A stretch of 64,000 nucleotides of DNA from Empedobacter brevis NBRC 14943 = ATCC 43319 (GTDB taxonomy: Bacteria; Bacteroidota; Bacteroidia; Flavobacteriales; Weeksellaceae), in assembly GCF_000382425.1 (NCBI RefSeq), contig NZ_KB908302.1, positions 1-64,000 of the forward strand, written 5' to 3'. Made by a program: the position numbers and the translations under genes. Below are positions 7,606 to 58,413 of the stretch, piece after piece (the stretch's first letter is position 1; the number at the start of each line of letters is the position of its first letter). Below the pieces are notes generated by a model. It was not told the origin of the DNA and made no database searches. It saw only the letters and a list, made by a program, of their open reading frames with translations.

Positions 7606-8238
7606 ATGATAAAAGAGAAAATAAAAGCAACTTATCCGGATCAATTTGAAGAAGAATTATTAAATGAAATTGATGAGTTAGGTTCTTTGATTGAATTTAA
7701 AGCAAATGATGTGATGATTGATTTGAATCAATTCATCAAAGGAATGCCAATTCTTTTGAGTGGTGCAATTAAAATTATGCGCGAAGATTTTGATGAAGGT
7801 GAATTGTTGTTATATTTTCTTGAAAAAGGAGATACCTGTGCGATGACGATGTCGTGCTGTTTGGGAGATAAACAAAGTAAAATTCGTGCCGTTGCAGAAA
7901 CAGACGGAGAATTGGTGATGATTCCTGTTGTAAAAATGGACGAATGGTTAGCAAGATATGCTTCCTGGCGACGGTTTATTTTTGATAGTTATCACAACCG
8001 TTTGGATGAAATGTTAGTTGCTATAGACAATTTAGCTTTTAATAACATGAATGAACGGCTGAAGAAGTATCTTTTGGATGTTGCGAGTATCAATAAAGGA
8101 AAAGTTGTGATGAAAACACATCAGGAAATTGCTTATGAATTGAATACTTCCCGTGTAGTGATTTCTCGCCTTTTGAAAGCGTTGGAAAAAGAAGGTTTTC
8201 TTCAACTGAACCGAAATGAAATTACGATTCATTCTTAA
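7606..8238 (+). CDS. Crp/Fnr family transcription regulator
   Basis: 210 residues. The first 125 or so form the cyclic-nucleotide-like beta-roll. The C-terminus carries a winged helix with the recognition region HQEIAYELNTSRVVISRLL (about residues 169-187). The roll contains CAMTMSCC, seen in many Bacteroidota members, but not the four-cysteine N-terminal cluster of Fnr, so it is not an obvious iron-sulfur sensor. The effector is unknown. It faces the MbnP/MbnH operon in convergent fashion across a shared terminator, so a link to that operon would be by position only. Confidence 0.85.
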   Translation: MIKEKIKATYPDQFEEELLNEIDELGSLIEFKANDVMIDLNQFIKGMPILLSGAIKIMREDFDEGELLLYFLEKGDTCAMTMSCCLGDKQSKIRAVAETDGELVMIPVVKMDEWLARYASWRRFIFDSYHNRLDEMLVAIDNLAFNNMNERLKKYLLDVASINKGKVVMKTHQEIAYELNTSRVVISRLLKALEKEGFLQLNRNEITIHS

Positions 8239-8257
8239 CAATTGTTGCAAAAAGATA

Positions 8258-8285
8258 AAAGGAACCTAAAGAGGTTCCTTTTTTA
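8258..8285. terminator. bidirectional terminator
   Basis: AAAGGAACCT pairs with AGGTTCCTTT around a four-base loop, followed by a T-run on both strands. It separates the Crp/Fnr gene from the YHS gene. Confidence 0.85.
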
Positions 8286-8318
8286 GTTCATATATGTTTT
8301 GAAAAATCTTCTTAAAAA

Positions 8319-8546
8319 TTACTTTTTCGTTCTATACTTTTTCGGATTTTTTTTAAATTCTGTTTTGCAGTTACTGCTACAGAAACCGTAAATCTTCTTC
8401 TGGTAAACGGCAGTGTCTTTTAGAAACTGAGCTGTATTCATACCACAAACAGGATCTTTTTCATTAACGACTTTTACCTTTGATTTTTGTTGAGCAAATG
8501 TTGTCAATGAAATGATTATCATGATTAAGGAGATTATTTTTTTCAT
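8319..8546 (-). CDS. secreted YHS-domain protein
   Basis: 75 residues: a signal peptide of about 18 residues (MKKIISLIMIIISLTTFA) and then a single YHS/TRASH-like zinc ribbon. The metal motif is DPVCGM (about 31-36) and then FCSSNCKTEF (about 55-64), which together provide the cysteines. YHS domains occur in copper and heavy-metal handling proteins and bind a metal ion. It is the last gene of the leftward MbnP/MbnH operon, 20 bases after the barrel-type protein, and probably works in the periplasm. Confidence 0.8.
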   Translation of the reverse strand: MKKIISLIMIIISLTTFAQQKSKVKVVNEKDPVCGMNTAQFLKDTAVYQKKIYGFCSSNCKTEFKKNPKKYRTKK

Positions 8547-8566
8547 TGTTGTTGATTTTTTTAGTT

Positions 8567-9517
8567 TTAAAATAAGCTATAATTTACGAAAAATCCAATT
8601 CGGTTTTTCACTTCAATTTCACCGGAGTTCAAATTCGAATGCAGAGGTTGAAAATATTCTACACCAAAATTAAATCGTTTGGCAGCGGCTTCCAATCCGA
8701 TTTTAGCAAATTGGGCATCACCTTTTGATTTTGGAATTGCTTCTCCAAACTGTTCATTTTCGAAGTAAAGTTCGTTTTGAAAACCAACTTTTCCAACCAA
8801 TTTGAATTCATTGTTTATAAAAAGTTGCTGCAATTGAATCAATTGGTTCCATTGATCCCCAAACTTATATTTCTTTTTATTCTCTCCTTTCAGATTATAG
8901 TCTGTGACCACTTGTAAGGCCGTATTTTTATAAGCCAATTGATAATTTAGAGCAAATTGTGTGTCCCAGCTTCCTGTTCCTAGCTGAAAACTTGGATTGG
9001 TGGTTTCAGCATTTGTTTGATCAAATTTAGCGATAGGAATTTTTAAACCAACTGCCGCGCTTAATCCATGTTTAAATTTATTTGTATCTTGAGTAGGTTT
9101 GACAAGCTTGACAACACCCATTACATTTAAATCTCCAATTCCCGAAATAGAAGTTGAGTTTTTGCCATCTTTTTGATGGAAATGATACGGAATGCTGGCA
9201 TTGACGTCTATTCTGTTATGTACAGGGATTCTTGCCCACAATTGAATTGTATTGAATTGCTGCTTTTGTGTTCTTTTATTGGAAAAAGCATCTTCTTTTG
9301 CTTTATAATATTGATGCAGATAGCGAACACCAATAAAGTTCGAGTTTAAAAGATTTTCAATTCCATTAGAAGCAGATGTAGCTGAACAGCCACAAGCATC
9401 GCAGTCTAATTCTACTTCCTGAAAATAAGGAGAGCTAATAGAATCGTGATCAGTATGTGCCAAAAGTAGAATGGGACTAAAAAATAGGACTAAAAATAAT
9501 GTTTGATATAATTTCAT
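8567..9517 (-). CDS. predicted outer-membrane beta-barrel protein of the copper operon
   Basis: 316 residues from the ATG at 9517, which directly precedes a good signal peptide (MKLYQTLFLVLFFSPILLLA). A second ATG at 9541 would overlap the upstream gene by 14 bases. The mature N-terminus has a His/Asp part and the motif CDACGC, a likely metal ligand. The rest alternates polar and apolar residues and ends in FFVNYSLF, with a terminal Phe typical of outer-membrane barrels. It follows the MbnH-like gene and precedes the YHS gene. I do not know the substrate; a copper or metal-chelate role is inferred from context. Confidence 0.62.
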   Translation of the reverse strand: MKLYQTLFLVLFFSPILLLAHTDHDSISSPYFQEVELDCDACGCSATSASNGIENLLNSNFIGVRYLHQYYKAKEDAFSNKRTQKQQFNTIQLWARIPVHNRIDVNASIPYHFHQKDGKNSTSISGIGDLNVMGVVKLVKPTQDTNKFKHGLSAAVGLKIPIAKFDQTNAETTNPSFQLGTGSWDTQFALNYQLAYKNTALQVVTDYNLKGENKKKYKFGDQWNQLIQLQQLFINNEFKLVGKVGFQNELYFENEQFGEAIPKSKGDAQFAKIGLEAAAKRFNFGVEYFQPLHSNLNSGEIEVKNRIGFFVNYSLF

Positions 9518-49520: not shown

Positions 49521-50669
49521 ATGAATATAATTCTTTTTGATGGGGAAGAGTGGGAAAATCTTTTGCCTCTTACGTTTACAAAACCAGTAGCGTCATTACG
49601 AATGGGAGTTTTAAGTTTTGCAGAACGTTGGGAAAAAATTCTAAATACAACCATATCTTATCAGACCCAATCTTATTTAGAAGAAAAATTTTCAACCAAC
49701 TATCAATCAGAAAATATATTCATCAATCCTTCATTTTTTCCAACCACAGAATTAATCCACTATATAAAAGAATTAGAATTAAATCAATCCATTCTTTTTA
49801 ATGACCGGCTTGTAGCTGTTAAAACGACTGAGGAATCTCCACATATAACATCAGAAATATTAAGTCTTGATAAGATAATTCATATCAAAAACTCTTGGGA
49901 TTTATTTACCTATAATTTTCAAGCGATTGAATTTGATTTTGAAATTTTGACAAAAGGAAGAGCTTCACAACCTATTTCTGAAACAAATAACGTTTTGCAT
50001 CCGGAAAAAATATTTATTGAAGAAGGAGCCAAAGTTGAATTTTCTATTTTGAATGCATCAGAAGGACCAATCTACATTGGCAAAGAGGCTGAAATTATGG
50101 AAGGTTGTATGATTCGTGGAGGATTGGCTTTGTGTGAACATGGTAAAATTAACATGGGAGCAAAAATTTACCCAGGTTGTACAGTTGGGCCATATTGTAA
50201 AGTTGGAGGAGAATTAAATAATGCTATCCTAATGGCATATTCTAATAAAGGGCACGATGGTTTCTTAGGAAATGCTGTACTAGGAGAATGGTGTAATTTG
50301 GGAGCTGATACAAATAATTCTAATCTGAAAAATAATTATGCAGAAGTAAAACTATGGAATTACAAAGAAAAACGATTTGTAAAGACCGGTTTACAATTTT
50401 GTGGCTTGATTATGGGAGATTATGCTAAATCAGCAATAAATACGCAGTTTAATACTGGTACGGTTGTTGGTGTTTGTGCCAACGTTTTTCAATCAGGTTT
50501 TCCACCAAATATGATTAAACATTATAGTTGGGGAGGACAATCAGATGCTCCTGTATTTAGTTTTGAGCGGGCATGTGAAGCAGCAGAAAAAATGATGGAG
50601 AGAAGAAAAGTAGAGTTTACTCCTACTGATAAGAAGATTTTAGAACATATTTTTAATTTAAATAACTAA
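49521..50669 (+). CDS. GlmU-family protein (left-handed beta-helix)
   Basis: 382 residues. The N-terminal 150 resemble a reduced nucleotidyltransferase (MNIILFDGEEWENLLPLTFTKPVASLRMG), without the full nucleotide loop. The rest is a left-handed beta-helix with hexapeptide turns: IFIEEGAKVEFSILNASEGPIYIGKEAEI, then GAKIYPGCTVGPYCKVGG and AVLGEWCNLGADTNNS. These domains hold acetyl- or acyltransferases or uridylyltransferases. It may serve nucleotide-sugar or lipid A formation. It has its own promoter. Confidence 0.8.
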   Translation: MNIILFDGEEWENLLPLTFTKPVASLRMGVLSFAERWEKILNTTISYQTQSYLEEKFSTNYQSENIFINPSFFPTTELIHYIKELELNQSILFNDRLVAVKTTEESPHITSEILSLDKIIHIKNSWDLFTYNFQAIEFDFEILTKGRASQPISETNNVLHPEKIFIEEGAKVEFSILNASEGPIYIGKEAEIMEGCMIRGGLALCEHGKINMGAKIYPGCTVGPYCKVGGELNNAILMAYSNKGHDGFLGNAVLGEWCNLGADTNNSNLKNNYAEVKLWNYKEKRFVKTGLQFCGLIMGDYAKSAINTQFNTGTVVGVCANVFQSGFPPNMIKHYSWGGQSDAPVFSFERACEAAEKMMERRKVEFTPTDKKILEHIFNLNN

Positions 50670-50773: not shown

Positions 50774-50801
50774 CTTTTTGTTAGAAAAGAATATTTGTGA
50801 A

Positions 50802-51839
50802 ATGACTGGTAAATATAAAAACGTTTTAGAGTTAATTGGAGATACTCCATTAGTTCAATTAAACAGAATTAACCAAGACATTCCAGGCGAAGTTTATGCA
50901 AAGTTAGAATGTTACAATCCTGGACATTCAACAAAAGACAGAATAGCTTTACATATTATAGAAGAGGCTGAAAGAAAAGGTCTATTAAAACCTGGTGCTA
51001 CGATTGTAGAGACAACTTCAGGTAACACTGGATTTGCTGTAGCTATGGTTGCTATCGTAAAAGGGTACAAATGTATCTTAGCGGTATCGGATAAAACAAA
51101 AGCAGAAAAAATTTCATTTTTGAAAGCAATGGGCGCGAAAGTATTTTTATGCCCTGCAAATGTACCTGCTGATGATCCTAGATCATATTACGAGGTGGCA
51201 AAACGTATTGCTGCTGAAACGCCAAATTCTCTTTATATAAATCAATATTTTAATCAAGGGAATACAGAAGCTCACTATTTAACAACAGGTCCTGAAATCT
51301 GGAAACAAACCGAAGGTAAGATTACTCACCTGATTGGTTGTACAGGAACAGGGGGAACTTTGACAGGTAGTGCTCGTTATATAAAAGAACAACATCCGGA
51401 TGTGAAAATTATCGGAGTTGATGCATATGGTTCTATTTTAAAAGGTTATCACGAAACCGGTAAAGTAGATCAAAATGAAATTTATCCGTATAGAATTGAA
51501 GGAATGGGGAAAAATTTAGTTCCCGGAGCTTTAGATTTTGATATGGTAGATAAATTTATAAAAGTTACGGACGAAGAAGCTGCATATTGCACAAGAGAAA
51601 TTGCTTTGAAAGAAGGAATTATGGCAGGTTATACTTCAGGTGCAGCAACGAAAGCTTATAAACAGTTAGCAGAAGAAGGTGAATTTGATGAGAATTCATT
51701 CGTTGTTATTTTGTATCCGGATCATGGATCTCGCTATATGACAAAAGTATTTAGTGATGATTGGATGGCAGAAGAAGGATTTACAAATAGCAGGCTCAAT
51801 GGTTTAGAAGCTCGTGCTACTGTAGAGCGAATAAAATAA
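50802..51839 (+). CDS. PLP-dependent cysteine/cysteate synthase-type enzyme
   Basis: 345 residues from the ATG at 50802; the frame opens at a TTG 24 bases earlier. The PLP lysine is K45 in NPGHSTKDR, the phosphate-binding loop is TSGNTG (about 72-77), and [11 protein letters not shown] holds the cofactor phosphate. The common cysteine synthase has NPSSSVKDR, so this one is a side branch. It is followed by an SPT-like enzyme and by serC and serA. In sulfonolipid-forming bacteria such a protein makes L-cysteate from O-phosphoserine and sulfite. That is the best reading here; plain cysteine synthase is the alternative. Confidence 0.85.
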
Positions 51840-51843
51840 TACG

Positions 51844-51851
51844 TATATTTG
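51844..51851 (+). promoter_or_regulatory. -7 element for the SPT-like gene
   Basis: TATATTTG lies five bases after the stop of the cysteate-synthase-type gene. It predicts a separate transcript with a leader of about 75 bases. Confidence 0.45.
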
Positions 51852-51931
51852 TAAAAATTAAATAATAAAGTAGGTTGTGTTTGTTCACTTTCTACTTTTT
51901 TTCAATTAATAAAAAATTAAACTAGAATAAA

Positions 51932-53191
51932 ATGGACATTTTTGAACGTTTAAAACAAAACCCTGGACCATTAGGTCAATTTGCTGATTATGGTGAAGGA
52001 TATTATGTTTTTCCTCAGTTAAAAGGAGAAATTGGACCGGTAATGGAATTCCAAGGTAAAAAAGTAATTACGTGGTCAATCAATAATTACTTAGGTTTAG
52101 CTAATCACCCGGAAGTTCGTAAAACTGATGCTGATGCAGCTGCAGAATATGGAATGGCTTACCCAATGGGAGCTCGTGCAATGTCTGGACAAACAGATTA
52201 TCATGCACAATTAGAGCAGGAATTGGCTGATTTTGTTCAAAAAGAGTCTGCTTATTTGATGAATTTCGGATACCAGGGAATGGTATCTACAATTGATGCC
52301 TTAGTATCTAAAAACGATGTAATTGTTTATGATGCCGAATGTCATGCTTGTATCGTTGACGGTGTTCGTTTACACTTTGGTAAGCGTTTTATTTACCAAC
52401 ACAACAACATCGAAAGTTTCGAAAAAACAATTGCCCGTGCGCGTAAATTAGCTGACAAACAAGGAGGCGGAATTTTAGTGATTACAGAAGGTGTTTTCGG
52501 AATGACTGGTAAACAAGGTATTTTGAAGGAAATTGCTGCTTTCAAAGATGAATATAAATTCCGTTTATTAGTAGATGATGCTCATGGTTTTGGTACATTA
52601 GGTAAAACTGGAGCCGGAGCTGGAGAAGAGCAGGGATGCCAAGATAAAATTGATATTTACTTCTCTACTTTTGCGAAGTCTATGGCTGGTTTCGGAGCTT
52701 TTATTGCAGGAAATAAAGACATTATTCGTATTCTAAAATATAACTTACGTTCTCAAATTTTTGCAAAATCATTGACAATGCCAATGGTGATCGGTGGTTT
52801 AAAGCGTCTTGAATTATTACGTTCTCAACCGGAACTAAAAAATAAGTTATGGCACAACGTAGAAAAAATTCAAAAAGGATTAGAAGAAAGAGGATTTGAT
52901 ATCGGAGGCTCTAATACTTGTGTTACACCAATCGTATTAAACGGTTCTCCTATTGAAGCAACTGTATTAGCGAAAGAAATGCGTGAAGAGTATGGAATAT
53001 TTGTTTCTGTTGTGGTTTATCCGGTAATTCCAAAAGGAATGATTATTTTCCGTATTATTCCAACTGCAGCTCACGAGGATGAACATATCGAATATACTTT
53101 AAATTCGTTTGCGGAAATTCGTAGTAAATTAGAAGATGGTTACTACAAGAGAAAAGCAGAAGAATTGAATGTAGATTTCGTTCAATACTAA
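51932..53191 (+). CDS. serine palmitoyltransferase-like / cysteate acyltransferase-type enzyme
   Basis: 419 residues, alpha-oxoamine synthase fold. The PLP lysine is K249 in FSTFAKSMAGFGAF. Other motifs are NYLGLANHPEV, VYDAECHACIVDG and LLVDDAHGFGTLG. The family joins an acyl-CoA or acyl-ACP to an amino acid with loss of CO2. Serine gives sphingolipids; cysteate gives 3-ketocapnine. Because the gene before it is a cysteate-synthase-type enzyme and serC/serA follow, the cysteate route is favoured. If serine is the substrate, the product is a sphingoid base. Confidence 0.85.
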   Translation: MDIFERLKQNPGPLGQFADYGEGYYVFPQLKGEIGPVMEFQGKKVITWSINNYLGLANHPEVRKTDADAAAEYGMAYPMGARAMSGQTDYHAQLEQELADFVQKESAYLMNFGYQGMVSTIDALVSKNDVIVYDAECHACIVDGVRLHFGKRFIYQHNNIESFEKTIARARKLADKQGGGILVITEGVFGMTGKQGILKEIAAFKDEYKFRLLVDDAHGFGTLGKTGAGAGEEQGCQDKIDIYFSTFAKSMAGFGAFIAGNKDIIRILKYNLRSQIFAKSLTMPMVIGGLKRLELLRSQPELKNKLWHNVEKIQKGLEERGFDIGGSNTCVTPIVLNGSPIEATVLAKEMREEYGIFVSVVVYPVIPKGMIIFRIIPTAAHEDEHIEYTLNSFAEIRSKLEDGYYKRKAEELNVDFVQY

Positions 53192-53215
53192 ATCACAATT
53201 AAATTAGAAGATATA

Positions 53216-53250
53216 AAAACCCTAAACTTTTTCAGTTTAGGGTTTTTTGT
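53216..53250 (+). terminator. rho-independent terminator
   Basis: AAAAACCCTAAACT pairs with AGTTTAGGGTTTTT, followed by a T-run, 25 bases after the acyltransferase gene. Confidence 0.92.
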
Positions 53251-53305
53251 TTGTATTCTGTTCAAAAGTAAAGCACGTTATCACGAATTACACCATTTGA
53301 TTTAC

Positions 53306-53313
53306 TATATTTG
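53306..53313 (+). promoter_or_regulatory. -7 element for serC
   Basis: TATATTTG matches TAnnTTTG, 41 bases before the serC ATG. Confidence 0.5.
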
Positions 53314-53354
53314 TTTACAATTAAAAACACACAAACACACAACAATTTTAATTT

Positions 53355-54425
53355 ATGAAAATTCACAATTTTAGTGCAGGACCATGCATTTTACCACAAG
53401 TCGTTTTCGACAAAATGGCACAAGCTTGTTTAGATTTCAACAATTCGGGAACATCTATCCTTGAAATTTCTCATCGTAGAAAGGATGCTGTAGAAGTAAT
53501 GGATACTGCAAGAGCATTGGTAAAAGAATTGATGAATGTTCCGGAAACACATGATGTAGTATTCATGCAAGGAGGAGCATCGTTGCAGTTTCCTACTGTT
53601 GCTTATAACTTATTAAGAGAAGGAGGAAAAGCTGCTTATACACAAACAGGAAAATGGGCAGAGAATGCAATAAAAGAAGCGAAACGTTTTGGAGAAATAG
53701 AAGTTATCGCTTCTTCTAAAGATAAAAACTATAATTATATTCCAAAAGGATATCCAATTCCTGCAGATGTAGATTATTTCCATTGTACCTCAAATAATAC
53801 GATTTTTGGAACACAAATGAAAGAATTCCCAACTTCATCAGTTCCTTTGGTATGTGATATGTCTTCAGATATTTTATCACGTGATATCGATGTATCAAAA
53901 TTTGGTGTAATTTATGCCGGAGCTCAAAAGAATATGGGGCCTGCCGGTTCTGCAGTTGCAATTGTTCAAAAAGATTTATTGGGAAAAACAGGACGTAATA
54001 TTCCTGACTATCTAAATTATGATGTCCACATCAAAAAAGAATCTTCTTTCAATACCTGGCCAGTCATTGCGATATATGGTGTTATGCTGAACTTACAATG
54101 GCTGAAAGAACAAGGTGGAGTAGAAGAGATTTCAAAAATTAATACAGCTAAGGCAGATGCAATGTATCATGAGATTGATCGTAATGGATTGTTTACAGGA
54201 ACTGCTGCAACAGAAGATCGTTCTCAAATGAACGCTACGTTTGTATTGAATAATGAAATTTTAAAAGCTGATTTTGATGCGATGTTGAAAGAAGCCGGAG
54301 TTGTTTCTTTAGCAGGACACCGTGATGTAGGTGGTTATCGTGCATCTATGTACAATGCCTTACCATTAGAATCTGTAGAGGTTCTGATAGAAGTAATGAA
54401 ACAATTTGAACAACAATTTGGATAA
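53355..54425 (+). CDS. serC: phosphoserine aminotransferase
   Basis: 356 residues, normal. It makes O-phospho-L-serine from 3-phosphohydroxypyruvate and glutamate in the cytosol. The PLP lysine is K192 in YAGAQKNMGPAG. Other motifs are NFSAGPCILP, ISHRRKDAVEV, FMQGGASLQF, and the C-terminal AGHRDVGGYRASMYNA. It lies between the acyltransferase gene and serA. It provides the phosphoserine for serine and possibly for cysteate. It has its own promoter. Confidence 0.95.
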   Translation: MKIHNFSAGPCILPQVVFDKMAQACLDFNNSGTSILEISHRRKDAVEVMDTARALVKELMNVPETHDVVFMQGGASLQFPTVAYNLLREGGKAAYTQTGKWAENAIKEAKRFGEIEVIASSKDKNYNYIPKGYPIPADVDYFHCTSNNTIFGTQMKEFPTSSVPLVCDMSSDILSRDIDVSKFGVIYAGAQKNMGPAGSAVAIVQKDLLGKTGRNIPDYLNYDVHIKKESSFNTWPVIAIYGVMLNLQWLKEQGGVEEISKINTAKADAMYHEIDRNGLFTGTAATEDRSQMNATFVLNNEILKADFDAMLKEAGVVSLAGHRDVGGYRASMYNALPLESVEVLIEVMKQFEQQFG

Positions 54426-54497
54426 ATCTTTTTGTATTAAGTAGTATCTACAATAATGACTTAATACATTTTACAATTTACATTTTACAATAAAACA

Positions 54498-55448
54498 ATG
54501 AAAATATTAGCGAACGACGGAATTTCTAAAGCAGGACAAGACGCTTTAGAAGCAAAAGGTTTCGAAGTAATAACTGCTCATGTAGCACAAGAACAATTAG
54601 AAAATTATATTAATAACAATGGAATTGAAGTACTTTTAGTGCGCTCTGCAACAAAAGTTCGTCAACCATTAATTGATGCGACAAACCTGAAAATTATTGG
54701 TCGTGGAGGTGTTGGTATGGATAACATTGATGTTGATTATGCACGTAACAAAGGAATCCAGGTTATCAACACACCTGCTTCTTCTTCTCAATCTGTAGCA
54801 GAATTTGTAATGGCACATTTATTCTCTATCGTTCGACATTTGCATAATGCCAATCGTACGATGCCATTAGAAGGAGATTCTAATTTCAATGGATTGAAAA
54901 AAGTGTATGCAAAAGCCATCGAATTGAGAGGGAAAACAATGGGTATTATTGGTTTTGGTCGAATTGGGATAGAAGTCATTCGGGAAGCAATTGGCTTGGG
55001 AATGAATATTTTAGTTTATGATAAATTCCCGGCGACACATGATATCGAATTAGAATTTTTTGATGGGCAGAAAGTGAACTTTACAATTACTTCTGTCGAT
55101 TTTGATGAAGTGATTACAAAAGCAGATTTTATTTCATTACATGTTCCTGCACAAAATGGATATATTTTAGGCGAAAAAGAATTTGCAAAAATGAAAGATG
55201 GCGTAATTGTAATCAATACAGCGCGAGGTGGAGTCGTAGACGAAAAAGCATTGGTTGATGCAATAGAAGCCGGAAAAGTGGCAGGAGCTGCTTTAGATGT
55301 ATTTGAAAATGAACCAACGCCTGAAATGGGATTATTAATGAACGAAGCTTTGTCTTTGTCTCCCCATATTGCAGGTTCTACGAATGAAGCTCAGGATAGA
55401 ATAGGGACAGAATTGGCAGCACAAATCGTAGAGATTTACGGAAAATAA
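54498..55448 (+). CDS. serA: D-3-phosphoglycerate dehydrogenase
   Basis: 316 residues, so the ACT regulatory domain of longer SerA is absent. NAD-binding GIIGFGRIGIEVIREA (about 149-164) and the catalytic pattern RGGVVDE with the helix HIAGSTNEAQ are visible, as are HVPAQNGYIL and VRSATKVRQP. It oxidises 3-phosphoglycerate to phosphohydroxypyruvate. It follows serC by 72 bases. The order serC-serA-DUF1015 is typical of Bacteroidota. Confidence 0.92.
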   Translation: MKILANDGISKAGQDALEAKGFEVITAHVAQEQLENYINNNGIEVLLVRSATKVRQPLIDATNLKIIGRGGVGMDNIDVDYARNKGIQVINTPASSSQSVAEFVMAHLFSIVRHLHNANRTMPLEGDSNFNGLKKVYAKAIELRGKTMGIIGFGRIGIEVIREAIGLGMNILVYDKFPATHDIELEFFDGQKVNFTITSVDFDEVITKADFISLHVPAQNGYILGEKEFAKMKDGVIVINTARGGVVDEKALVDAIEAGKVAGAALDVFENEPTPEMGLLMNEALSLSPHIAGSTNEAQDRIGTELAAQIVEIYGK

Positions 55449-55481
55449 TTTTGGTTTTTATTCCATTTAAATTTACTTGAA

Positions 55482-56729
55482 ATGCCACAATTTAAACCAT
55501 TCAAAGGAATTCGTCCGACAGAAGAAACTTCTCAAGAGTTTGTGACCCTTGCCGTGAATCAATATTCGAAAGAAGAGGTAGATTATTATATCAATACAAG
55601 AGAAAATTCTTTCTTGCATATTATTTTACCAACGTGGGACGAATCGATCACGGATTCGAAAGACAGATTTAGAAAAGTTCGCCAGAATTTGGAAGAATTT
55701 ATTGAAAAGAAGATCTTGATTCAGGATAAATCATCATTCTATATCTACCAGGTTATCCAGTCTGATGGTCGAGAAACAAAAGGTCTTTTGGGACTTGTAA
55801 GTATAGAAGATTATCGGAATAACAAAATTAAAAAACACGAAGAGACATTGGAACGCCGTGTCGAATTGTTTGCTGAATATTTAAAAGAATCTCATTTTCA
55901 TGCTGAACCTGTTTTGTTGACCTATCCACCTGCTCAAAGGGTAGATTTGTTGATAGATACAGAGATGAAACGTAAACCGATCCTGAAAATAGAAGAAGCT
56001 AACGGAACGCAACATTTATTGTGGAGAGTTGACAATCGATTAAACTTGAAACAACTGAAAGATTCCATCGAAAAATTAGACGAATTGTATATCGCAGATG
56101 GACATCATCGAATGGAAAGTTCGGAACGTTATACAAAATATGCAACAGAATCTTCTAAAGAGAAGGTATACGGAAATGAAGCGTTTAATTATACTTTGGC
56201 GCTACTGGTTTCGAATAAAGAATTGATGATAAATGATTATAATCGTTTGATTCAAGATTTGAATGGCTTATCACCGGAAGAGTTTATTCAGCGTTTGGAA
56301 GCGTATTTTGAAATTATTCCGAAAAAAGAGGAGCTAACTGTTCCCACGAAAAAACATCATTTGGTAATGTATTTAGATGGTCAGTTTTATAGCCTTTATG
56401 TTAAGAATAATCTGCTTCATACAGAAGGTTTAAGTGAATTGGATACCTATATTTTTGAAGAAACTGTTTTGAAACCAATTTTAAATATTCAAGATTCTAA
56501 AAAAGATAAACGTGTTCATTACGAATGCGGAACGCGTGATAAAGCAGGAATAGAAGCATTGAAGAATAAAGTGGATCATCACGATTATGTGGCCGCATTT
56601 GCTTTCTATCCTGTCGATGTAAAGGATTTACAATTGATCTCAGATTTAGGGCTTAAAATGCCTCCTAAAAGTACGTATATCGAACCAAAACCATTGAGTG
56701 GTTTTGCCGTATTTGATTTGAAAGAATAA
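55482..56729 (+). CDS. DUF1015 family protein
   Basis: 415 residues. The opening is FKPFKGIRPTEETSQEF, and the family marks are ADGHHRMESSERYT (about 205-218), RPT blocks and the C-terminal SGFAVFDL. This is the DUF1015 family (COG4198). I know no proven activity for it; the position after serA suggests that it takes part in serine or phosphoserine metabolism, for example as a phosphatase or kinase. No classical SerB is in the window. It is cytosolic. It lies 33 bases after serA. Confidence 0.82.
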   Translation: MPQFKPFKGIRPTEETSQEFVTLAVNQYSKEEVDYYINTRENSFLHIILPTWDESITDSKDRFRKVRQNLEEFIEKKILIQDKSSFYIYQVIQSDGRETKGLLGLVSIEDYRNNKIKKHEETLERRVELFAEYLKESHFHAEPVLLTYPPAQRVDLLIDTEMKRKPILKIEEANGTQHLLWRVDNRLNLKQLKDSIEKLDELYIADGHHRMESSERYTKYATESSKEKVYGNEAFNYTLALLVSNKELMINDYNRLIQDLNGLSPEEFIQRLEAYFEIIPKKEELTVPTKKHHLVMYLDGQFYSLYVKNNLLHTEGLSELDTYIFEETVLKPILNIQDSKKDKRVHYECGTRDKAGIEALKNKVDHHDYVAAFAFYPVDVKDLQLISDLGLKMPPKSTYIEPKPLSGFAVFDLKE

Positions 56730-56735
56730 AATAAA

Positions 56736-57395
56736 ATGAGTATTCAAGATAATTTAAAAACAATTGAACCGACAATCCCTGCTCATGTAACACTTGTTGC
56801 GGTTTCTAAAACAAAACCAGTTGAAGATGTACAGGAAGCTTATGAAGCAGGAATCAGAGATTTTGGTGAAAATAAAATACAAGAAATGTGCGATAAATAC
56901 GAAGTTCTTCCAAAAGATATTCGTTGGCACATGATTGGACATGTACAGACCAATAAAGTAAAGTACATGGCTCCTTTTGTACATTTGATTCACGGAGTTG
57001 ATAGTCTGAAATTATTAAAAGAAATTGATAAGCAAGCACAAAAAAATAATCGGGTAATTGATGTGTTATTGCAGCAATTTATTGCAGATGAAGAAACTAA
57101 ATTTGGATTAGATGACAAAGAAATACGCCAAATAATGCAGGAAGAAATTCAAAGTTTGCCTCATATTAGAGTTGTAGGTTTGATGGGAATGGCAACATTC
57201 ACGGATGATGAAAATCAAATCAGAAACGAGTTTAAAACGCTAAAATCTAATTTTGAATATTTGAAAAATAATTTCGAAAATATTTCGATTTTATCAATTG
57301 GAATGTCCGGTGATTATCAAATAGCAATAGAAGAAGGGAGTACAATGGTTCGTATTGGAAGCTCCATTTTTGGATATCGTAACTATTCGATTTAA
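56736..57395 (+). CDS. YggS-family PLP homeostasis protein
   Basis: 219 residues. The PLP lysine is K25 in VAVSKTKPVEDV; RWHMIGHVQTNK, GLMGMATF and the C-terminal MSGDYQIAIEEGSTMVRIG bind the cofactor phosphate. It is a single-domain type III fold protein that binds and balances free pyridoxal phosphate rather than catalysing a reaction. It follows the DUF1015 gene by six bases, so it is in that operon. It may buffer PLP for the neighbouring PLP enzymes. Confidence 0.9.
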   Translation: MSIQDNLKTIEPTIPAHVTLVAVSKTKPVEDVQEAYEAGIRDFGENKIQEMCDKYEVLPKDIRWHMIGHVQTNKVKYMAPFVHLIHGVDSLKLLKEIDKQAQKNNRVIDVLLQQFIADEETKFGLDDKEIRQIMQEEIQSLPHIRVVGLMGMATFTDDENQIRNEFKTLKSNFEYLKNNFENISILSIGMSGDYQIAIEEGSTMVRIGSSIFGYRNYSI

Positions 57396-57474: not shown

Positions 57475-58413
57475 CTAAAAAGGCAATGTGTCTAAATTGA
57501 CATTTCCACCAGAAATAATTATCCCGATATTTGTATTTTTATAACGTTCTTTCTCTTTAATAAGAGCTGCAAAAGCAACAGCTGAAGAAGATTCACAAAT
57601 AATTTTTAATCGTTCCCAAATTAATTTCATCGCAGCAATTATTTCTTCTTCTGTAACGCGGATTATTTTTTCTACACCTTTTTGTATAATAGGAAAATTA
57701 ATATCACCCAATGTTGTTTTTAATCCGTCTGCAATCGTATTTGTGGTAACATTTGATTCAATTTGACCACTTAACAAAGAACGAAAAGCATCATCAGCTT
57801 CAAAGGGTTCACCTCCGATTACTTTACAATTTGTTCCAAAATGTTCGGCAGCGATTGCCGTTCCGGCAATAAGACCTCCACCTCCTACAGGAGCGAAGAT
57901 ATACTCTAAATCCGGTTGAGTTTCTAATAATTCTTTTGCTGCTGTACCTTGACCGAAAATAACATGTAGATCATTCGAAGGGTGAATAAAAGTCGCTCCT
58001 TTTTGCTCTTGAATTTCTTTTGCTGCTTTTTCTCGGGCTGCTAATGTCGATTTACATTCGATAATTTTTCCATTATATGCTTTTACTGCCTCTTTTTTGA
58101 CTTGAGGTGCGCTATCAGGCATCACAATAAAAGCATCAATTCCTTGACTTTTGGCAGCAAGAGCCAGAGCTTGAGCAAAATTTCCGGAAGAATGTGTAAC
58201 GACTCCTTTTTGTTTTTGCTCCTCAGAAAGTAACATGACAGCATTAGTAGCGCCCCTCATTTTGAAAGCACCCATTTTTTGGAAGTTTTCACACTTAAAA
58301 AATAAATTCGCTCCAACCATTTCATTTAGTAAAGTAGAGGTTAAAATAGGTGTATTGTGAATAAAAGGTTTTATACGCTTTTGCGTTTCAATCATTATTT
58401 TTTTGTACATCAT
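57475..58413 (-). CDS. threonine/serine dehydratase-type PLP enzyme
   Basis: 312 residues. The PLP lysine is in GAFKMRGATNAV (about residues 49-60). SSGNFAQALA and the tetraglycine loop PVGGGGLIAG bind the cofactor phosphate. There is no ACT domain, so it is like the short catabolic dehydratases or serine racemases. It deaminates threonine or serine to a 2-oxo acid via an enamine. The ATG overlaps the RidA stop by one base (TAATG). RidA clears the reactive enamine, which supports the role. Confidence 0.88.
   Translation of the reverse strand: MMYKKIMIETQKRIKPFIHNTPILTSTLLNEMVGANLFFKCENFQKMGAFKMRGATNAVMLLSEEQKQKGVVTHSSGNFAQALALAAKSQGIDAFIVMPDSAPQVKKEAVKAYNGKIIECKSTLAAREKAAKEIQEQKGATFIHPSNDLHVIFGQGTAAKELLETQPDLEYIFAPVGGGGLIAGTAIAAEHFGTNCKVIGGEPFEADDAFRSLLSGQIESNVTTNTIADGLKTTLGDINFPIIQKGVEKIIRVTEEEIIAAMKLIWERLKIICESSSAVAFAALIKEKERYKNTNIGIIISGGNVNLDTLPF

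Follow-up and report, generated by a model that had tools for sequence, protein, structure and literature searches.

A DUF1015 protein with a predicted serine-kinase-like fold beside capnine and serine genes of Empedobacter brevis: a candidate for the phosphoserine-to-serine step

Introduction

How O-phosphoserine may be shared between serine and sulfonolipid synthesis is the question raised by positions 50802 to 57395 of a 64,000-nucleotide stretch of Empedobacter brevis NBRC 14943 = ATCC 43319 (contig NZ_KB908302.1, hereafter "the window"). In this interval, six genes follow one another head to tail on the + strand: a capA-like gene, a capB/sulA-like gene, serC, serA, a DUF1015 gene and a yggS-type gene (Table 1). 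An earlier note on this DNA had seen in the first four genes a likely sulfonolipid (capnine) pathway with its own phosphoserine supply; the interval it delimited, up to 57395, also contains the DUF1015 and YggS-family genes, which were left unnamed there. Pfam lists DUF1015 (PF06245) as a "protein of unknown function", and we take COG4198 to be the same family. A literature search naming DUF1015, COG4198, PF06245 or IPR008323 found no assigned function in the sources that it reached, subscription journals being mostly outside it. It is this gene that holds the main interest of the locus, as a putative serine/phosphoserine enzyme whose predicted fold resembles that of the free serine kinases.

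Based on sequence comparisons and on a structural model, the locus is probably made of two units meeting at O-phosphoserine, DUF1015 being an enzyme of the SerK/SbnI fold that acts on serine or phosphoserine, most likely from phosphoserine to serine. In the scheme that we infer, the first unit, capA-capB, would carry out the opening steps of sulfonolipid synthesis: CapA would convert phosphoserine and sulfite to cysteate, and CapB would join cysteate and an acyl thioester to give 3-ketocapnine, with lipid production as the expected outcome. In the second unit, serC-serA-DUF1015-yggS, SerA and SerC would yield phosphoserine from 3-phosphoglycerate, and DUF1015 would work on the serine/phosphoserine pair, most likely releasing serine in genomes that lack SerB. 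In that case, CapA and DUF1015 would be rivals for one phosphoserine pool.

Predicted fold and conserved residues of DUF1015

The AlphaFold2 model of DUF1015, built from 69 sequences, has a predicted local distance difference test score (pLDDT) of 95.4 and a predicted template modelling score (pTM) of 0.91. When the model was compared with the PDB by Foldseek, nine matches were obtained at E ≤ 0.001, namely SerK (5x0b, 5x0e, 5x0g, 5x0j and 5x0k), 1vk1 and SbnI (5uje, 5ujd and 6nr6); the tenth match had an E-value of 0.018 and a probability of 0.06. The same nine entries were aligned by VIA-align with Z-scores of 11.8–13.8 over 211–225 of their 232–254 residues (top Z 13.8, 225/240), and beyond this group the scores were 5.4 for Noc and 5.3 for sulfiredoxin (Srx). 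The entry 1vk1 is a "conserved hypothetical protein" of P. furiosus, with 32 of 34 residues the same as in SerK in the stretch compared. On this predicted model, DUF1015 falls within the SerK/SbnI fold. Its sequence similarity to the group is not significant, phmmer retrieving no serine kinase from the PDB at E ≤ 10, and DUF1015 is SerK-like in fold only.

The DUF1015 profile and 1vk1 share four short, individually insignificant matches, three of which align HE, DGHHR and PKxT collinearly, the fourth being out of order. According to this weak alignment, H119-E120, D206-G-H-H209-R210 and K396/T398 of DUF1015 correspond to the 1vk1 motifs. The HE glutamate is equivalent to residue 30 of SerK, a position that holds E in 5x0b but Q or A in the mutated chains of this kinase; DGHHR was seen in 1vk1 only and was not read in the SerK chains. 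H119, E120, D206, G207, H208, H209, R210, R255, K396, T398, P402 and K403 are invariant in all 69 proteins of the main alignment (A2, using 68 of the 80 loci fetched) and in all 18 proteins of a second alignment of divergent members (18 of 20 used, L011 and L194 being left out). No HAD family match was found in DUF1015 at E ≤ 0.001: with regard to SerB, the claim is a replacement of function, not membership.

The divergent proteins, obtained from 20 genomes hand-picked among the 88 with DUF1015 but without this serC, form a subfamily in Bacteroidota (L193, L195–L211) that shares 21–28% identity with the window protein and keeps the core residues.

Linkage to serine genes and distribution of SerB

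Of 31 DUF1015 loci in Bacteroidota, 27 have serA and/or serC next to the gene. Of the 80 named DUF1015 loci, Clostridia included, for which flanks of up to 9 kb were fetched, 45 have one or both genes on the same strand and no more than 3.5 kb away. The distribution of SerB was then considered in a phylum sample of 247 genomes, of which 141 carry serC over the cut-off (G190, with a weak serC match, was counted as serC-negative). These were split by linkage, defined as DUF1015 within 6 kb of serC, a split chosen post hoc and not predicted beforehand; the place of DUF1015 was not listed for 30 of them. SerB over the cut-off was found in 2 of the 76 genomes with serC-linked DUF1015 versus 9 of the 17 serC genomes without DUF1015 (Fisher p 1.2e-6, uncorrected for kinship), and in 7/76 versus 15/17 when weak matches were included. 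In 20 named genomes with DUF1015, SerB over the cut-off was found in 1/20 overall and in 0/14 where DUF1015 is linked to serA and/or serC, three weak matches of 71–74 bits aside. The genome of E. brevis itself holds no SerB over the cut-off of 144 bits; the best of its six weak matches has 35.6 bits, and three of the six fall in open frames 673–851 amino acids long.

A regulatory element was also found in one Clostridium. In Clostridium sp. cel8, a T-box leader of 126 bits (L110:6553-6758) precedes a class V aminotransferase gene, serA and DUF1015; its specifier we take to be UCC (Ser). The Rfam riboswitch scan covered 25 loci (17 of Firmicutes, five of other phyla, L076, L077 and L166), in which the other matches were a T-box on the opposite strand (L126), a glycine riboswitch ahead of another gene (L149), a downstream tetrahydrofolate riboswitch (L128) and otherwise tRNA or rRNA.

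The near-absence of SerB in the linked genomes, together with the T-box, fits a biosynthetic operon whose final step would be filled by DUF1015, which probably takes the place of SerB in these genomes. More broadly, we propose tentatively, at somewhat less than even confidence, that DUF1015 completes serine biosynthesis in the many Bacteroidota and Clostridia where SerA and SerC occur without SerB, the phosphate being perhaps passed to a nucleotide, as in a free serine kinase running in reverse. As a separate observation, two serC-bearing genomes rated as 100% complete, G107 and G118, lack DUF1015 and show no match to SerB at E ≤ 1e-12, and given these a further phosphoserine phosphatase may exist.

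Such a function would meet a gap in the literature. Four types of phosphoserine phosphatase have been distinguished, none of them described as DUF1015 in the accessible text of that study, which also counts 450 genomes of diverse Firmicutes possessing SerA and SerC without any of the four (PMC9026213). The growth of C. perfringens without added serine has been left unexplained (PMC7311316), and in Porphyromonas serC, a gene for an NAD(P)-binding protein and DUF1015 have been reported in a row (PMC11316588). With its serine-kinase-like predicted fold and its recurrence beside serA and serC in Bacteroidota and Clostridia, DUF1015 is a concrete candidate for this phosphatase gap. If this is true, it would be CapA's competitor for phosphoserine in sulfonolipid makers.

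Relation between capAB and the serine operon

The adjacency of serC and serA had been taken to strengthen the capnine link as an own phosphoserine supply. The neighbourhood is indeed particular to a lineage: in our own-family sample of 110 genomes, capA and serC both occur in 103 at the thresholds applied and lie within 6 kb of each other in 13, of which 10 belong to the same genus as the window and 3 to a single further genus. The remaining genomes with both genes have them on one contig at a distance of at least 28 kb (39 genomes) or on different contigs (51 genomes). The order glmU-capA-capB-serC-serA-DUF1015-yggS, on the same strand, was kept in all eight relatives fetched, with a DUF1015 identity down to 60%.

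However, the adjacency argument is weaker than claimed, and the supply idea is backed in part. A comparison of nine loci (the window and eight relatives, out of the 13 adjacent genomes) showed that the capB-serC gap passed a strict terminator test in 9/9 loci versus 0.01 expected from shuffles; the serC-serA gap passed it in 0/9. Downstream of the terminator, TAnnTTTG, which is presumably the −7 promoter element of Bacteroidota, was present in 9/9 loci, a count made without a shuffle control for the motif. A single capAB-serCA operon was rejected in view of the terminator and the promoter-like motif in this gap, and capA-capB and serC-serA-DUF1015-yggS look like separate units kept adjacent in one lineage. 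Besides, serC and serA travel with DUF1015 in lineages without nearby capA, and no capA match was found in the fetched flanks of the 80 named DUF1015 loci. Because of the terminator and promoter-like motif, of the serC that is the sole match to the serC model in its genome (E ≤ 1e-30), and of serC-serA-DUF1015 occurring elsewhere without capA, the second unit is a general serine operon which capAB adjoins.

The two units might thus be neighbours by chance of ancestry, with no bearing on phosphoserine supply. The restriction to two genera, the signals between capB and serC and the occurrence of the serine operon elsewhere without capA nearby all favour this explanation, whereas the conserved order and strand of the block, down to relatives with a DUF1015 identity of 60%, and a placement that is sensible given the shared intermediate speak for a functional tie. 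We rate chance adjacency at nearly even odds, slightly on the lower side, and it is compatible with DUF1015 acting from phosphoserine to serine in either case.

Two further observations concern this neighbourhood. The capA-capB gap (51840-51931 in the window; also L166–L173) shows by eye, in 9/9 loci, an AGTAG...CTACTT hairpin with a T run, which lies downstream of TAnnTTTG in some loci and passed the strict terminator test in 1/9; it might serve capB as an attenuator or structured leader. In a metagenome-assembled genome labelled Chitinophaga pinensis, a capB-like gene (L102:11901-13112, 62% identity) lies about 1.7 kb from DUF1015 on the opposite strand, with no capA match within the fetched 19 kb.

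Direction of the DUF1015 reaction

DUF1015 might instead act in the SerK/SbnI direction, making from serine an O-phosphoserine that would feed CapA, or returning serine to 3-phosphoglycerate through SerC and SerA. Its nearest folds are indeed serine kinases, and SbnI reportedly supplies O-phosphoserine to the CysK-like SbnA. In some Desulfurococcales, the proximity of SerK genes to serA and aminotransferase genes has been interpreted as serine assimilation (PMC5120207), SbnI and SerK have been presented as ParB-fold enzymes of serine metabolism (PMC12704722), and glycine riboswitches have been reported ahead of serC and ahead of COG4198 genes (PMC2211319). Nevertheless, SerB is so rare where DUF1015 is linked to serC that phosphoserine must be turned into serine by some other route, and a T-box read as serine-specific heads the operon in one Clostridium. 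Moreover, capA was not found in the fetched flanks (up to 9 kb) of any of the 80 DUF1015 genes, and therefore DUF1015 did not spread as a supplier of CapA. We consider the kinase direction unlikely, though still a serious competitor.

A role as a non-enzymatic, nucleotide-binding regulator of ParB-type fold, tuning serC-serA, is improbable. Several ParB-fold proteins are switches driven by nucleoside triphosphates (PMC12704722), but the structural similarity spans most of SerK and SbnI, well above that to Noc, Srx and ParB, and the equivalent of SerK E30 is E in 69/69 and 18/18 aligned proteins.

Several observations weigh against DUF1015 as the enzyme that turns phosphoserine into serine. The two relatives that have been characterised, SerK and SbnI, run the other way, adding phosphate to serine (PMC5120207; PMC12704722), and the DUF1015 profile reaches a single PDB sequence at E ≤ 10, 1vk1, with an E-value of 0.24 that is non-significant alone. 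As many as 35 of the 80 named loci have neither serA nor serC nearby; yggS adjoins DUF1015 in 19 of these 35, many of them Flavobacteriaceae by title. A global anticorrelation between DUF1015 and SerB was tried over the 247 genomes and rejected (SerB in 66/212 with DUF1015 versus 9/35 without, Fisher p 0.56), the contrast emerging only on the post hoc split by serC linkage. Within this split, eight of the nine SerB genomes without DUF1015 belong to one genus, kinship being uncorrected in the contrast, and SerB over the cut-off also occurs in 4/18 serC genomes with unlinked DUF1015 and in 4/30 whose DUF1015 place was not listed. SerB is further present in 56/88 genomes with DUF1015 but without this serC. 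The T-box of L110 is the single upstream same-strand one among the 25 loci scanned, a thin support. Finally, the divergent subfamily occurs in genomes without this serC, and in 5 of the 6 loci whose neighbours were scanned (L193, L195, L200, L202, L203 and L207, L200 being without a Pfam match) it adjoins ScpA, TsaE, biotin carboxylase, Maf or PNPOx; therefore part of the DUF1015 family acts otherwise or gets its substrate elsewhere.

Enzymes of the sulfonolipid unit

The first enzyme had been described as cysteine-synthase-like, with the variant loop NPGHSTKDR, and as the putative source of cysteate; by sequence this assignment holds. The enzyme is called CapA-like by best match alone: the CapA model (NF053679) is ahead of the next one, that of cystathionine beta-synthase (CBS, 387 bits), by 188 bits. 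The closest PDB chain is 9k2p (479 bits versus 288 for the best CBS), an entry named merely as the beta subunit of a protein dependent on pyridoxal phosphate (PLP). The loop is present as described, where aligned CBS chains have NPGGSxKDR, and it reads NPGHS[STA]KDR in 38 of the 40 loci with a CapA hit that were examined, the remaining two having NPGLS or NPGQS. A point against the assignment is that the score falls 24 bits short of the curated CapA cut-off (600 bits). The cut-off is also missed in 103 of the 104 own-family genomes with a match and, because one alone exceeds it, the model appears to be calibrated for other families. A separate relative in the same genome, a 455-amino-acid open frame with 458 bits to the CapA model, is taken to be the CBS. 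Matches of CapA grade, set at 544 bits or more, occur in 30 of the 247 phylum genomes, all of which belong to the family of E. brevis or to a second family of its order. An O-phosphoserine sulfhydrylase or a CBS, producing cysteine or cystathionine, is a highly improbable identity for the CapA-like enzyme: the shared family, the score of the CBS model and the missed cut-off would allow it, but the lead of the CapA model, the altered GHS loop, the capB neighbour and the separate relative taken as CBS oppose it.

The second enzyme had been described as an acyltransferase like serine palmitoyltransferase (SPT) that would make the 3-keto sulfonolipid base, and by sequence this assignment holds too. 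Over its whole length, CapB matches 28eh ("Cysteate-C-fatty acyltransferase", CFAT) with 631.7 bits and 7u7h with 559.2, versus 235.8 for SPT (3a2b); 7u7h carries a generic name in its entry and is SulA by its match to published work (PMC9304779). In that work, Lys281, which is Ala in SPT, separates SulA from SPT (PMC9304779). Its equivalent is present here, the Lys of IFAKS in CapB aligning with YAKS in 7u7h where SPT has FSAS, so that both the diagnostic residue and the full-length similarity place the protein with SulA and CapB. The motif RSQ[IM]FAKSL recurs in all 15 loci with a CapB match among the 18 fetched (14 kb each). The same genome encodes four more CapB paralogues at 31–33% identity: one is a glycine C-acetyltransferase over the cut-off, two are SPT-like below the cut-off and the fourth is BioF-like, below the cut-off and matched over 260 amino acids.

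The capA-capB order, presented by the earlier note as known from gliding Bacteroidota, does not hold everywhere. A capB gene is nearby in 15 of the 18 fetched loci, but three loci have none within 14 kb and three others have a gene of the short-chain dehydrogenase/reductase (SDR) family in between. The latter are relatives of two genera (L174, at 7920-8771, L177 and L179), and this SDR is a good candidate for the 3-ketocapnine reductase (CapC). No ortholog of the L174 protein was assigned in the E. brevis genome, where the best match has 87 bits and 34% identity; against the model of 3-ketodihydrosphingosine reductase (cut-off 400), an SDR at G000:C7:157515 reaches 190 bits and remains a candidate.

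Gene layout of the window

The features of the locus are collected in Table 1. The claimed order of CapA-like enzyme, SPT-like enzyme, serC and serA was recovered in full, all on the + strand and with family matches far beyond chance. From the glmU-like gene onward, the intergenic gaps are 132, 92, 163, 72, 33 and 6 bases. The glmU-like gene is a member of the conserved neighbourhood, outside the pathway. The capA-like gene has an alternative in-frame TTG start at 50778. With serA, TIGR01327 gives 282.7 bits, below its cut-off of 454, and is still the top of the 22 models listed. Apart from one tRNA, the Rfam scan of the window returned nothing. Beyond the block, an open reading frame on the − strand (57475-58413), threonine/serine dehydratase-like by eye, faces the serine operon, making a local serine metabolism possible.

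Table 1. Features of the capnine and serine gene block in the window
Feature	Position	Strand	Evidence and remarks
glmU-like sugar nucleotidyltransferase	49521..50669	+	TIGR03991 424.6 bits; upstream of capA in 12/18 fetched loci
capA-like (putative cysteate synthase, PLP fold II)	50802..51839	+	ATG start; NF053679 575.6 bits; PALP 2.3e-79
capB/sulA/cfat (putative cysteate fatty acyltransferase, alpha-oxoamine synthase family)	51932..53191	+	Aminotran_1_2 9.3e-38
Intrinsic terminator between capB and serC (predicted)	53215..53248	+	stem CCCTAAACT/AGTTTAGGG and T run
Promoter-like TATATTTG	53306..53313	+	fits TAnnTTTG; 41 bases upstream of serC
serC, phosphoserine aminotransferase	53355..54425	+	NF003764 455.9 bits, cut-off 253; Aminotran_5 2.6e-43
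serA, short-form 3-phosphoglycerate dehydrogenase	54498..55448	+	2-Hacid_dh_C 1.2e-46; linked to serC
DUF1015 protein, SerK/SbnI fold (predicted)	55482..56729	+	PF06245 283 bits, 2.6e-84
yggS-type PLP protein	56736..57395	+	TIGR00044 202 bits, over cut-off; 6 bases after DUF1015

Comparison with known systems

The synthesis of sulfonolipids from phosphoserine has already been published (PMC11211663; PMC10191378), so that capAB is here an added case of a published pathway, in which the enzymes named by the earlier note are right and ordinary. As in the CapA-CapB-CapC or Cys-CFAT-KCR pathway of Flavobacteriia and with SulA of Alistipes finegoldii, a CapA-type synthase is found together with a CapB/SulA protein bearing the diagnostic Lys. 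In A. finegoldii, the place of CapA is taken by a cysteate synthase of archaeal type (PMC10191378). The cluster described here contains no reductase gene, and the reductase genes of C. gleum are likewise unlinked to cfat and Cys (PMC11211663). Unlike in the known capnine systems, capAB adjoins serC-serA-DUF1015-yggS, an arrangement limited to two genera among the family genomes sampled. If the proposed role of DUF1015 is true, the CapA and DUF1015 of the window would stand at a phosphoserine branch point, serine on one side and sulfonolipid on the other.

DUF1015 resembles SerK of Thermococcus and SbnI of Staphylococcus in its predicted fold, in the HE motif that falls on E30 of SerK and in the DGHHR of 1vk1. 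It also stands beside serA and an aminotransferase gene, as SerK does in some archaea. It differs from both in about 85 additional N-terminal residues, the structural matches beginning at model residues 84–94 in 7 of 9 rows, and in a sequence similarity that is non-significant. The genomes with serC-linked DUF1015 are mostly without SerB, suggesting a net direction opposite to that of SerK and SbnI. As for the known phosphatases, SerB1 and the YsaA-type SerB3 are HAD enzymes. The step proposed for DUF1015, from phosphoserine to serine, is the one carried out by SerB1 to SerB4, among which SerB2 belongs to the histidine-phosphatase family and SerB4 to HAD (PMC9026213), whereas DUF1015 would perform it with a SerK-like fold.

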